Source of the DNA: Thermodesulfovibrio sp.
Lineage (GTDB): Bacteria > Nitrospirota > Thermodesulfovibrionia > Thermodesulfovibrionales > UBA6898
NCBI GenBank assembly: GCA_013824615.1
Contig: PNOC01000024.1
Span: 1 to 47,734, forward strand
Length of the DNA: 47,734 nt
Direction: 5' to 3'
Shown: one piece after another, positions 17,196 to 42,053 of the stretch
Position numbering within the stretch: the first letter of the stretch is position 1
How the letters are laid out: each line of letters opens with the position of its first letter
Notes under the pieces: generated by a model
Databases searched by the model: none
What the model was told of the DNA's origin: nothing
The model's input: the letters and a program-made list of their open reading frames with translations, nothing else
Translations under genes and position numbers: made by a program

Positions 17196-17322
17196 GACGG
17201 GTTCGAAAAAAGTCCGTATGCTGCGTTGCGCTTCAAAACTCGTCACTGCAACGTACCAGTAAGTACGCTTCATTCCTCATTATCTTGCGCGCCTTGCCTC
17301 CGAAGCTTTTTACAAACCCGTC
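17196..17322 (+). repeat. R1 palindromic element, copy 1 (127 bp)
   Basis: Terminal inverted arms: it starts GACGGGTTCGAAAAAAG and ends CTTTTTACAAACCCGTC. The centre carries a smaller hairpin (CGTAC-cagtaa-GTACG). It is related to copies at 38676-38813 and 42004-42053, which lie in the opposite orientation. It begins 6 bases after the zapA stop and may serve as its terminator or mRNA end. No ORF and no transposase, so it is a non-autonomous or REP/MITE-like element. Confidence 0.85.
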
Positions 17323-17409
17323 TTCCTGTCGACTTTTATAAGTAATTCACAGCTTATTCACCGCAATAATCATTAAAAATCAAAGAGTTTGAGATATCTT
17401 TTTTTTGCC

Positions 17410-37352: not shown

Positions 37353-38819
37353 TCAGTGTTTCAGGTCTGTTTTCCTGAGGTCGCCCACAACCACAAGCAG
37401 GTAATCTTTTGAGCTGAGATACTTTTTCGCCACGCGCTGCACCTCTTCTTTTGACACCTTCTCAATGTACTGCTTGTAGTTGTCGATATAATCCAGTCCA
37501 AGTCCGTAGTACTCCATTGAAATCAGAAACCCGGCAATCTTGCTGTTGGAATCGACCCGCAGCGGAAAGCTGCCGGTAAGGTATGCCTTGGCATCATTCA
37601 GTTCCCGGTCAGTGACCGGTTCGGTTCTGATACGGTTCATCTCCCTGAGGATCTCGTCGACGGCAACCTGAGCTGTCTGGTTCTTGGTCTGAAGTCCAGC
37701 CTTGAAGCTGCCGCCGTATTTCTGAGGGGTAAAGTAACTGTGGACATCATACGAAAGTCCCTTATTGTCTCTGATATTGTCGACCAGGCGGGAGGCAAAA
37801 CCGCCACCACCGAGAATATAGTTCATAACCGTGACCGCATAATAATCAGGGTTGTCTCTTGCTATGCCAGGGTGTCCGAGAATGATATTTGCCTGGGTGA
37901 TCTCCTTCTGGATTTTTATTACGCGCGATTGAAGCAGAGGCTTAATTTCAGGCAGTTGCGTGGTCTTCGTCTGCTTTTTCTCCCATCTGCCGAAATAGCG
38001 GTTGAGCATGGCCCTGAGTTCATCCCTGCTGATGTCCCCAACGACCGCCATGATCGCGTTGTTCGGGGCATAATATTCCTTGTGGAAAGCAACAAGGTCC
38101 TGTCGCGTGATGGTATCAAGCGTCTCCTCGGTCCCCTCTGTTGGCCAGCCATAGGGGTGGTTGCCGAAGAGTTCCTTCATGAACGCCTTGGACGCAACAA
38201 CTCCGGGCTCTTCCCGCTGCTGCTGTATGGAACCCTTGATGATCGCTTTTCTCCTGCTGATCTCCTTTTCACTGAAGACAGGGTTCTGAAGTATATCCGC
38301 AAGGAGGTCAAAACCGAGGTCCATATCTTTTTTCAGGACAGAGAGGGTGGCGGTTACATAGTCCGCCCCTCCTCCGGTCTGCAGTGAGCCGCCGACGAAC
38401 TCAATCGCCTCACTGATCTCCCTGGATGACCGGGTCGTTGTGCCTTCATTCAGCAGGTCTGCCGTCAGGTTCGCAAGCCCGGCCTTAGCAGCAGTCTCCT
38501 CGATGGTTCCGGCTTTTACCGCTACAATCACGCGGATGATCGGCAGGGCCTTTTTCTCTGCATGCAGCAGCGTCAGTCCGCTGGGGAGAATCTCACGATC
38601 CGCAATTGCCGTGGCAGAGGCAGTCGAGGTGCAGACAAGCAGGGAGAAGAGAAAAATTGCAAAAGTCGCAAATGAGACGGGTTTGTAAAAAGCTCTGGAG
38701 GCAAGGCGTGCATGGTTCGACAGGCTCACCATGACAGGAGCAGAGCTTGCCCTGAGTTTATCGAAGGGAGTTTTGAAGAGCAACGCAGCATACGGACTTT
38801 CCACGAACCCGTTAATCAT
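37353..38819 (-). CDS. M16 peptidase-like protein, non-catalytic partner subunit
   Basis: The M16 fold is clear from ILPSGLTLLHAEKKALPIIR onward. The zinc motif HxxEH is missing (GLANLTADLLNEGT instead), while the substrate-binding Arg/Tyr region GGGGFASRLVDNIRDNKGLSY is kept, as in partner subunits of M16 heterodimers. A signal peptide (FATFAIFLFSLLVCTSTASA) points to export. The start is odd: ATG 38819 lies 3 bases after the stop of the catalytic subunit gene, and the first ~47 codons run through repeat R1 copy 2. The only alternative start is ATG 38732, also inside the repeat. Either way the repeat supplies the start and the signal-peptide n-region; no ATG, GTG or TTG lies between the repeat and the hydrophobic core. 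Confidence 0.85.
   Translation of the reverse strand: MINGFVESPYAALLFKTPFDKLRASSAPVMVSLSNHARLASRAFYKPVSFATFAIFLFSLLVCTSTASATAIADREILPSGLTLLHAEKKALPIIRVIVAVKAGTIEETAAKAGLANLTADLLNEGTTTRSSREISEAIEFVGGSLQTGGGADYVTATLSVLKKDMDLGFDLLADILQNPVFSEKEISRRKAIIKGSIQQQREEPGVVASKAFMKELFGNHPYGWPTEGTEETLDTITRQDLVAFHKEYYAPNNAIMAVVGDISRDELRAMLNRYFGRWEKKQTKTTQLPEIKPLLQSRVIKIQKEITQANIILGHPGIARDNPDYYAVTVMNYILGGGGFASRLVDNIRDNKGLSYDVHSYFTPQKYGGSFKAGLQTKNQTAQVAVDEILREMNRIRTEPVTDRELNDAKAYLTGSFPLRVDSNSKIAGFLISMEYYGLGLDYIDNYKQYIEKVSKEEVQRVAKKYLSSKDYLLVVVGDLRKTDLKH
38676..38813 (-). repeat. R1 palindromic element, copy 2, with nested repeat R4
   Basis: Outer arms match copy 1: on the minus strand it starts AACGGGTTCGTGGAAAGTCC and ends CTTTTTACAAACCCGTC. 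The centre of copy 1 is replaced by a different small palindrome (R4, about 38711-38767: arms GGTTCGACAGGCTCACC and GAGTTTATCGAAGGG). R4 is the widespread type whose translation gives FDKLRA..MVSLSNH. It lies between the two M16 genes and is read through in frame by the second. Confidence 0.85.
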
Positions 38820-38822
38820 CTT

Positions 38823-40145
38823 TTATTTCTTCGCCTCCAGTGGAATCAGCACTCCTGTGGTGCGCTGCTCCGGTACAAGATACTTTGCGGCCACGCGCTG
38901 AACATCGGCAGCAGTGACCCTGCGGATCGCCTCAAGGTAGGAATCGACCAGTCTCCATCCGCCGATCATCTCGAACGACCCTATGAGCCGGGCCTGCATA
39001 TAAAATGAATCCTGCTCCATGATGAACGATGCCTCCACCTGATTCTTTGCCTTGAGTATCTCCTGGTCTGTCGGAGGCTCTTTACTGATTTTTTCTATTT
39101 CGGCCAACAATGCCTTTTCAACGTCATCAATGCTTTTGCCTCGTGCGGCTGTCGCACCGGTATAGAACAGGTGTGGATCCCGCCGCATCCCGTCATACCC
39201 GGCAAAGGCTGAAAGGGCAAGCTGTTTTTCGTAGACAAGGCTGTTATGTATCCTGGTGCTCTTGCCGCCCGAGAGTATGCTGCTGAGTATGTCGAGAGCC
39301 GGGCCGTCCTCCCGGTACACTGCCGGGGCCTTATACACTGAAATAACAACCGGAAGTTCAGCCTCTTTCCTGAGCAGGATCCGCTTTTCCCCCTGCTGCT
39401 CATCTTCCGAGATATTCACTGCTTTTATCTCAGGACCGGCCGGGATCCTGCCGAAGGTGTTCCGTATCTTTGCAAGGATTTTAGCCGGTTCCACATCACC
39501 GACAACGAGAATGACGGCATTGTTCGGGGCATAATACGTTGCATAGTGCTGCCTCAGGTCCTCGGGGTTCAGCGTCTTCAGGTCCGACATCCAACCTATC
39601 ACCGGCCACCGGTAGGGATGGTTTTTGAAGGCGGTCGCCACGACTTCCTGGAAGAGCAGGTTCTGCGGATCGTCTTCATACCGCAGGCGTCTCTCTTCCA
39701 TGACTACATCACGTTCGGAAAGAACGGACTCATTGGTCAGGACCAGGTTCTGCATCCTGTCGGCTTCCAGTTCTATGGGCAGGTCGAGCCTGTCCGAGGC
39801 CAGCAGTTCAAAATATCCGGTATACTCGCTTGTGGTAAAAGCATTGTCCATGCCGCCGGCCCGCTGTATCGCCTGGGAGAAGGTCTTGGGCCCATGTTTT
39901 TTGGTGCCCTTGAACATCATATGTTCCAGCAGGTGACTCAGGCCGGTTTTCCCTATATTCTCATGCCGGGAGCCGACCCGGTACCAGACCTGGAAGGTTG
40001 CGGTTGGGGCCTTGTGGTCCTCAAGGATCAGCACCTTCAGCCCGTTGTCAAGCAGATGCTCCTGGACATTAATGGCAGATGATGAAAGGGGTGTCAGCAG
40101 CAGGACAAGCAAAGACCAGAGTACTATTGTCTGTAATTGTTTCAT
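38823..40145 (-). CDS. M16 zinc peptidase, catalytic subunit
   Basis: 440 residues from ATG 40145: MKQLQTIVLWSLLVLLLTPL is a signal peptide; the zinc-binding motif HLLEH is at 71-75 with the third ligand Glu in ELEADRM (~residue 122). Typical of processing-protease-like PqqL/YmxG proteins in the periplasm or outer membrane, working as a dimer with the Arg/Tyr subunit encoded next. An in-frame extension to 40190 adds 15 residues without a ribosome site. TAAAAT lies just 5 bases before the ATG with TTGTCA 18 bases further up, suggesting a leaderless mRNA. Confidence 0.9.
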   Translation of the reverse strand: MKQLQTIVLWSLLVLLLTPLSSSAINVQEHLLDNGLKVLILEDHKAPTATFQVWYRVGSRHENIGKTGLSHLLEHMMFKGTKKHGPKTFSQAIQRAGGMDNAFTTSEYTGYFELLASDRLDLPIELEADRMQNLVLTNESVLSERDVVMEERRLRYEDDPQNLLFQEVVATAFKNHPYRWPVIGWMSDLKTLNPEDLRQHYATYYAPNNAVILVVGDVEPAKILAKIRNTFGRIPAGPEIKAVNISEDEQQGEKRILLRKEAELPVVISVYKAPAVYREDGPALDILSSILSGGKSTRIHNSLVYEKQLALSAFAGYDGMRRDPHLFYTGATAARGKSIDDVEKALLAEIEKISKEPPTDQEILKAKNQVEASFIMEQDSFYMQARLIGSFEMIGGWRLVDSYLEAIRRVTAADVQRVAAKYLVPEQRTTGVLIPLEAKK

Positions 40146-40210: not shown

Positions 40211-41938
40211 TCAGCGGATATAGGCTTCGGTGACATACCGTCGCATCATCCGGTGGGTGTTGAAGTAATAGGCATTCTTGCCGATTGCGTTTTGCATCAT
40301 CCTGATCCAGGTATGCCGGTTGTTGTAGTACAACGGCAGAATTGTATACTCAAGCTTGTTATAAAGGTCTTCCGAGTCACGGACATCGGCATCCGCCCCC
40401 GGAGCAAGTTCATGAGGCGGCGGGCCGATGGACCATCCGGTGAACCCTTCAATATGTCCCTCTATCCACCACCCGTCGAGTACGCTGAAGTTCATGACGC
40501 CGTTATGTGTTGCCTTCATGCCGCTGGTTCCTGAGGCCTCAAGCGGCCGCAGCGGCGTGTTCAGCCAGATGTCCACGCCGGAGACGATTTTCAGTGATAT
40601 GTCCATGTTGTAGTTCTTGAGATAGACGATATTTATTTTATCCTTGAAATGCTCGCTGTATTTAAAAATATTCTGAATGAGCTTCTTCCCCTGCTCATCT
40701 TTGGGATGTGCCTTGCCTGCATAGACCAGCTGAATCTTGCCGGTGCCGATGCGCGCCAGCCTTTCGAGGTCGCGGAAGAGCAGGTCTGCCCTTTTATATG
40801 CGGTTGCCCTGCGGGCAAAGCCAATGGTGAGGACATCCGGAGAAAATTCAGCGCCTGTCTTCTCCCTGATATAGGTGATGAGCTGGTTTTTTGTCTGCAT
40901 ATGCGCTTCCCAGAGTTTTTCATCCGGAATGCGGCCTACCCGCACAAAGAGCTCAGGTTCGTTTGCCCAGCCGGGAAGATATTCGTCATAGATTTTCTTG
41001 AAGGGTTCACTGGTCCAGGTAAAAGAATGCACTCCGTTGGTGATGGCGTGAATCTCATATCCCGGGAACATGCTCTGCGAAACCTGGCCATGTTTTTTGG
41101 CAACCCCATTGACATAACGCGTGAGGTTCAGCGCAAGCATGGTCATATTCAGGTAATCCCTGCCTGCAAGGTCCTGCAGTGTCGAGATCGGGATCACCTC
41201 CCCCATGACCCTGGCTACAAGGTCGTACGGGAACTTGTCATGCCCTGCCTCCACCGGGGTATGGGTTGTAAACACACAAAGATCCTTGACACTTTTTCTG
41301 TCCCAGACCAGTTTCTCGTCCCAGACGTCCTCGATCGGTTTTTTGAAGCGGTTCAGCAGTTCAAGCGTCAGAAGGCTGGCGTGCCCCTCATTCATATGAT
41401 ATTTTCTGATCTCGAGTCCCATCTCGTGCAGGATCCTCACTCCCCCTATGCCGAGGACTATCTCCTGCTTGAGGCGGTAGGTCGGGTCACCACCGTAAAG
41501 ACTGCTCGTAATATCCCTGTCTGTAGCGCTATTTACCGGTAGGTCGGTATCAAGGAAAAAAACAGGGACCGATCCGCCGGTGAGGCTCTTGACGTTATAA
41601 AGCCAGGCCTGAACAACGACGTCTCTTCCCTCGATCTGGACAGTTACCTGATACGGCAGGACCTGCATGTAGGCGGCCGGGTCCCAGACAGAGGGATGTT
41701 CTGTCTGTAGGCCGGTTTCATCAATCTCCTGGGTGAAATAGCCTTTTTTTGTAAGGATTGTCACAGCAACGAGCGGGAGCTTCAGGTCCGCAGTCGACCG
41801 GATAGTGTCCCCTGCAAGCACGCCAAGTCCTCCGCTATATGTAGGGATGTCGTTATGCACCCCGATCTCCATCGAAAAATAGGCGATCTTCGGTTCTTTG
41901 GTCAGTTCAATGATTGTATCTGCGATCGTAGTGGTCAT
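40211..41938 (-). CDS. glgP: Alpha-glucan (glycogen) phosphorylase
   Basis: Releases glucose-1-phosphate from alpha-1,4-glucans with PLP. The short (~575-residue) archaeal/thermophilic-type phosphorylase of the TIGR02094 group: IAYFSMEIGVHNDIPTYSGG (~residues 18-37), HMNEGHASLLTLEL (~residue 185), and the PLP Lys in EASGTSGMKATHNGVMNF (Lys ~503). ATG at 41938 is chosen: the upstream in-frame extension to 42031 runs into R1 copy 3 and is not conserved-looking. TACAAT is 8 bases before the ATG and there is no Shine-Dalgarno. Its stop is 20 bases before the M16 promoter, on the same strand. Confidence 0.93.
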   Translation of the reverse strand: MTTTIADTIIELTKEPKIAYFSMEIGVHNDIPTYSGGLGVLAGDTIRSTADLKLPLVAVTILTKKGYFTQEIDETGLQTEHPSVWDPAAYMQVLPYQVTVQIEGRDVVVQAWLYNVKSLTGGSVPVFFLDTDLPVNSATDRDITSSLYGGDPTYRLKQEIVLGIGGVRILHEMGLEIRKYHMNEGHASLLTLELLNRFKKPIEDVWDEKLVWDRKSVKDLCVFTTHTPVEAGHDKFPYDLVARVMGEVIPISTLQDLAGRDYLNMTMLALNLTRYVNGVAKKHGQVSQSMFPGYEIHAITNGVHSFTWTSEPFKKIYDEYLPGWANEPELFVRVGRIPDEKLWEAHMQTKNQLITYIREKTGAEFSPDVLTIGFARRATAYKRADLLFRDLERLARIGTGKIQLVYAGKAHPKDEQGKKLIQNIFKYSEHFKDKINIVYLKNYNMDISLKIVSGVDIWLNTPLRPLEASGTSGMKATHNGVMNFSVLDGWWIEGHIEGFTGWSIGPPPHELAPGADADVRDSEDLYNKLEYTILPLYYNNRHTWIRMMQNAIGKNAYYFNTHRMMRRYVTEAYIR

Positions 41939-41946
41939 AGGGAAAT

Positions 41947-41975
41947 ATTGTAAGCTATTTATCCAGGGGAAACAA
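41947..41975 (-). promoter_or_regulatory. glgP promoter close to the start codon
   Basis: On the minus strand TTGTTT (41975-41970), 17-base spacer and TACAAT (41952-41947), then 8 bases to the ATG at 41938. This predicts a 5' UTR of about one or two bases. Confidence 0.6.
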
Positions 41976-42003
41976 CTTTTTGTCCTGCAAAAATTAAGAA
42001 TGA

Positions 42004-42053
42004 GACGGGTTTGTAAAAGATTCGGAGGCATACGGACTTTTTACGAACCCGTC
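42004..42053 (-). repeat. R1 palindromic element, copy 3 (50-bp deletion form)
   Basis: It keeps only the arms: GACGGGTTTGTAAAAG at the left, then TTCGGAGGCATACGGAC, and TTTTTACGAACCCGTC at the right; the ~75-base centre of copy 1 is gone. It sits between the divergent promoters of glgP (its -35 ends at 41975) and of the RDD gene (its -35 begins at 42058). Confidence 0.85.

Follow-up and report, generated by a model that had tools for sequence, protein, structure and literature searches.

An in-frame MITE-like palindromic repeat in the predicted export leader of an M16 peptidase subunit gene of Thermodesulfovibrio sp.

In-frame insertion of repetitive elements into bacterial genes is established for the enterobacterial RU elements (PMC2759123). 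In the Yersinia gene YPO1552, the MITE-like element RU-2 makes residues 1–30 of a protein for which residues 1–41 are the predicted signal peptide (Delihas 2007, PMC2759123), and the relatives of YPO1552 have unrelated signal sequences (PMC2759123). Rickettsia palindromic elements (RPEs) are palindromes of approximately 150 bp that lie in frame within ordinary genes and encode a conserved peptide, and RPE insertions in genes are frequent (PMC10969869). The Chunjie MITE of Geobacter uraniireducens, as far as the account in PMC10969869 goes, is 178–235 bp long, is found in an operon and has terminal inverted and direct repeats. Here, we describe a palindromic repeat that lies in frame at the 5′ end of a conserved M16 peptidase gene of Thermodesulfovibrio sp., on a contig of 47,734 nucleotides that was analysed as a whole (PNOC01000024.1, referred to as the window).

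The locus consists of two adjoining M16 genes on the minus strand. Gene 1 (38823–40145, minus strand) was assigned by Pfam, carries the motif HLLEH and matches the PDB entry 3amj_C, ‘zinc peptidase active subunit’, while gene 2 (37353–38819, minus strand; 488 codons from ATG 38819) contains the Pfam domains PF00675 and PF05193 and has as its best PDB match 3amj_B, ‘zinc peptidase inactive subunit’, in an alignment that starts at residue 78. With its M16 domains, no HLLEH or other HxxEH motif and an adjoining partner that has one, gene 2 is an inactive-type subunit of the M16B kind. The pair thereby resembles the 3amj-type M16B heterodimer in both of its members, and what is unusual is the leader of gene 2 only, owing to a palindromic repeat of 138 bp (AACGGGTTCGTGGAAAGTC ... 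GCTTTTTACAAACCCGTC; 38676–38813, minus strand), which was delimited by alignment of approximately 20 genome copies and makes up codons 3–48 (46 codons). At the junction, the minus strand reads the gene 1 stop codon TAA (38825–38823), AAG and ATG 38819. The open reading frame 37353–38819 (minus strand; 488 amino acids) is open across the entire repeat, codons 3–48 included, as the original prediction had stated. In-frame start codons are ATG 38819 (codon 1), GTG at codon 6, TTG at codon 13, ATG 38732 within the repeat (38730–38732, minus strand; codon 30) and, next to it, GTG 38729; a start-codon scan found no ATG, GTG or TTG in frame from 38727 to the hydrophobic core, which bears out the further claim that translation has no start available between the repeat and this core. 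The open frame as such was rejected as a sign of selection: the same frame is free of stop codons in 10 of the 13 composite copies examined.

The repeat belongs to a dispersed family. In the genome of the window (G000), blastn gave 58 matches to it, the best second copy being 89% identical, and an outer palindrome bounded by GACGG(C/G)TTCGTAAAAAGTC and GCTTTTTACAAACCCGTC is present approximately 20 times. Most of these outer copies have a middle part without the inner palindrome that encodes FDKLR ... MVSLSNH, which is contained in a small number of copies, among them the window copy (38711–38768, minus strand, in gene 2, where it includes ATG 38732) and which also occurs alone elsewhere in the genome, as seen from blastn matches limited to query positions 58–115 and from pattern copies. 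Many copies of the composite form are found in G022, a genome of another genus of the same family, where the element extends 27 bp past the apparent end of the window repeat to a right terminal repeat, giving a total of 165 bp with the terminal inverted repeats GACGGCTTCGTAAAAAGTC ... GACTTTTTACGAGTCTGTC. Among 12 complete G022 elements, exact 6-bp duplications flank 8 and duplications with at most one mismatch flank 10 (shuffled right flanks gave 1.7 on average and 6 at most), and one copy in G000 is flanked by the exact 6-bp duplication ACTCTT. By its sequence, the anatomy of the family is that of a MITE-like element of 165 bp when complete: it is short, has no transposase, is dispersed in tens of copies in G000 and G022, and has terminal inverted repeats and a 6-bp duplication. 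A search with paired ends for an autonomous parent gave, among the pairs listed, pairs approximately 150–165 bp apart and no long pair. Matches were found in 7 of 149 sampled genomes of the order, and the family is therefore patchy in this order. G022 is rich in the composite element and G000 also carries it, but no copy turned up in the four remaining members of the genus of the window, a distribution which suggests horizontal spread or loss. As a peptide, the repeat was found in 4 of 60 relatives, and nowhere except in the window inside a long conserved open reading frame; likewise, among the copies examined in G000 and the relatives, the window copy alone lies wholly within such a frame. 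Several other copies sit just ahead of genes with a start of their own further down, or give a short common C-terminus.

Further copies illustrate how the element can touch the ends of reading frames. At the loci L108, L114 and L115 the element ends are read as GAGACGGGTTTGTAA, so that unrelated reading frames share the C-terminus ETGL followed by the stop codon, and the element may thus also set gene ends. Within the window, an outer-repeat copy with the ordinary middle part lies at 17196–17342 (approximately 127 bp and a remnant of the right end), and a shorter, partly deleted outer-repeat copy at 41981–42053 precedes a glycogen phosphorylase-like gene (40211–42031, minus strand), whose longest reading frame begins in this copy (MPPNLLQTRLILNF...) and whose real start is probably further down at MTTTIADTI. 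At locus L113 (G022:C6; copy 1501–1638), the end of the element on the opposite strand is mutated to TTTTTATGAAACCGTT, which places ATG AAA CCG directly before the hydrophobic stretch LLLGLLILLMSAAVSFSA; here the repeat end may supply the start codon and the n-region of a long orphan reading frame (from 1628, plus strand of the locus), for which no Pfam family and, in 40 genomes, no relative was found.

The copy inside gene 2 matches the profile made from the G022 copies with an E-value of 3e-46 and shows 88% identity in blastn over 38661–38812. Directly behind the 138-bp repeat, the stretch TCATTTGCGACTTTT (38661–38675, minus strand; codons 49–53, SFATF) forms the start of the hydrophobic core, and 14 of its 15 bases match the right part of the family, a level reached at 1 position only of 95,468 on both window strands; the following 12 bases match the family consensus at 4 of 12 positions, which is chance level. 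Judged by these matches, repeat-derived DNA extends past 38676 to about 38661 and hence into the hydrophobic core, and the copy is truncated there, with approximately 153 of the 165 bp kept and the final 12 bp missing. The left end, the only terminal end that is whole, begins directly behind ATGATT. No second ATGATT was found within 200 nt downstream of the window copy, and no target-site duplication was found flanking it. Approximately 51 codons (residues 3–53) are repeat-derived by alignment, comprising the n-region after Met-Ile and the beginning of the core, and the native n-region of gene 2 is probably missing. The repeat peptide has no family in Pfam or NCBIfam, and a literature search for the peptides themselves gave nothing relevant. 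A reading of the repeat as structured RNA was rejected, as there is no Rfam match and the stability of its fold is little above that of shuffled sequences (z −1.8).

The original prediction had the repeat supply the start codon of gene 2, and orthologous gene pairs bear on this directly. The gene 2 N-termini and starts were read in 29 relatives, of which L012–L015, L027 and L028 deviate or are unclear since the contig is cut or the assignment is ambiguous. The proposed comparison of the M16 pair with its orthologues supports one part of the prediction and not the other: the repeat is found at the N-terminus in 0 of 29 relatives, but in most of them the start lies at the gene 1 stop. In 21 of 29 relatives it overlaps the gene 1 stop by 4 nt (−4), and it is placed at +2 and +1 in the two closest relatives, G001 and G002, respectively, and at +3 in the window, where ATG 38819 (38817–38819, minus strand) follows 3 nt behind the gene 1 stop. 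The start contexts of the window (ctggaggcgaagaaaTAAaagATG) and of G002 (ctggaggcgaaaaaaTAGtATG) match. A Shine-Dalgarno-like GGAGG (38834–38838, minus strand) lies 14 nt ahead of ATG 38819, still within the 3′ end of gene 1, and is also present in G002 and as a variant in G001; pairing with the anti-Shine-Dalgarno sequence upstream of ATG 38819 amounts to −9.7 kcal/mol, the same value as in G002. Because a start at the gene 1 stop is conserved and because this is the sole good Shine-Dalgarno match, gene 2 most likely starts at ATG 38819, at an ancestral position that lies outside the repeat and predates it. Two points count against this start: the spacing of 14 nt is above the usual one, and a predicted RNA fold pairs both GGAGG and ATG 38819 when gene 1 is untranslated. 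Translation from ATG 38732, in which case the repeat would supply the start codon together with a 19-residue n-region (MVSLSNHARLASRAFYKPV) of a 40-residue signal peptide, is unlikely in our estimation. The signal peptide predicted from this start would come closer to the typical length and charge (+3), and the fold of the isolated RNA leaves ATG 38732 less paired than ATG 38819; however, ATG 38732 lacks a Shine-Dalgarno match, its pairing energy of −3.1 kcal/mol equals what random 22-mers give (median −3.0), and it sits 90 nt from the gene 1 stop, at which most relatives start. As the likeliest reading, the repeat as supplier of the start codon was therefore rejected.

Read from ATG 38819, the repeat precedes a predicted signal-peptide core and c-region (SFATFAIFLFSLLVCTSTASA; 38613–38675, minus strand), with cleavage predicted between ASA and TAIADRE according to the AxA rule. 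The assignment was made by simple rules of charge, hydrophobicity and the AxA motif. Hydrophobicity averages 2.6 over the core FAIFLFSLLVCT, where 2.5–3.1 was computed for the orthologues, and the net charge ahead of it is +4 from ATG 38819 and +3 from ATG 38732, so that a basic n-region, a hydrophobic core and an AxA cleavage site, as found by rule in Sec signal peptides, are all present. The anatomy of the sequence thus supports the part of the original prediction according to which the repeat gives the n-region of the signal peptide, as a predicted leader. An n-region of approximately 50 residues is long, which speaks against the reading from ATG 38819. As both the cleavage site and the 3amj_B match from residue 78 lie behind the repeat, the repeat peptide would leave with the signal peptide; the predicted cleavage takes off all repeat-derived residues and would leave the mature subunit unaffected.

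That the repeat reached gene 2 by insertion, as originally claimed, is supported by the 29 orthologue N-termini without a repeat, by its rarity as a peptide (4 of 60 relatives) and by the terminal inverted repeats and target duplications of the family. The best explanation, which we consider probable, is an insertion behind the coupled start followed by a deletion and by readthrough as a leader that signal peptidase removes. A MITE-like element would have inserted straight behind codons 1 and 2 (ATG ATT) of the second gene in the translationally coupled M16 pair. The complete element of 165 bp (55 codons) and the 6-bp duplication (two codons) amount to 171 bp, and both lengths are multiples of three; since these lengths keep the frame and the frame is open in most copies, an insertion behind the start codon would by default be read through. 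Assuming ATGATT as the duplicated target, a second ATG and the native gene start would at first have been left behind the element. A later frame-keeping deletion would then have removed the last 12 bp of the element, the ATGATT duplicate and probably the native n-region; we infer both the duplication and this deletion, the latter from the absence of these three pieces of sequence. Ribosomes ending gene 1 would re-initiate at ATG 38819 and translate the repeat into a basic leader of 51 residues, continuous with the core that survived, and after export signal peptidase would remove the entire leader to yield a normal mature subunit. We propose with more reserve, at somewhat below an even chance, that the insertion at the start codon, the duplicated codon and the deletion together made the host dependent on the element for a working signal peptide, which would amount to the domestication of a MITE as an export leader.

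The insertion might instead have damaged gene 2, which would then be decaying, with a leader that works poorly or not at all and a 5′ end altered by a recent lesion. Both the native n-region and any start further downstream seem to be gone, and insertions of this kind are mostly harmful; against this, the body of the gene is intact over 415 codons and, by its comparison with G001 (dN 0.125, dS 1.6), under strong purifying selection, although these values average over the whole divergence and leave very recent decay invisible. As the operon partner gene 1 is likewise intact, we regard decay as improbable. An assembly or sequencing error, in which a frameshift or misjoin conceals a normal start behind the repeat, is very improbable: the draft assembly that includes the window comprises 96 contigs and repeats are prone to misjoins, but both junctions continue into the two M16 genes, which are ordered as in the orthologues; no other copy exceeds 89% identity, which makes a collapse of reads unlikely, and no alternative in-frame start lies behind the element.

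The reshaping of proteins by insertion of mobile DNA is a known and rarely documented route, of which gene 2 presents a clear case. The insertion behind a coupled start, a frame-keeping length and duplication, and the loss of the old leader illustrate a likely path, and because signal peptides are removed, their n-region would be a low-cost entry point for mobile DNA into a conserved gene. Gene callers should note that a peptide such as FDKLR...MVSLSNH need not be spurious. The repeat-derived leader would escape ordinary N-terminal proteomics, since it is predicted to be cleaved off.

Among the known systems, the Chunjie MITE is alike in its operon insertion, its terminal inverted repeats and its direct repeats, a likeness by description only; at 178–235 bp it is not read as protein in the account of PMC10969869, whereas the element here is 165 bp long and in frame. 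With the RPEs, the likeness lies in the mode of action only, namely the in-frame insertion into a conserved protein-coding gene, and no family membership is claimed; here, in contrast, one of approximately 20 genome copies is read inside a conserved gene and is predicted to be lost with the signal peptide. The closest case is RU-2 in YPO1552, where a MITE-like repeat also forms part of a predicted signal peptide, the families being likened by description and not by sequence. There, the repeat starts from residue 1 of a small exported protein, while in the present case the repeat most likely follows the start codon, in an operon gene for a conserved peptidase subunit. In-frame insertion of MITEs and palindromes being already known, gene 2 adds a case from a Nitrospirota lineage, one in which orthologues of the conserved gene reveal the ancestral start.
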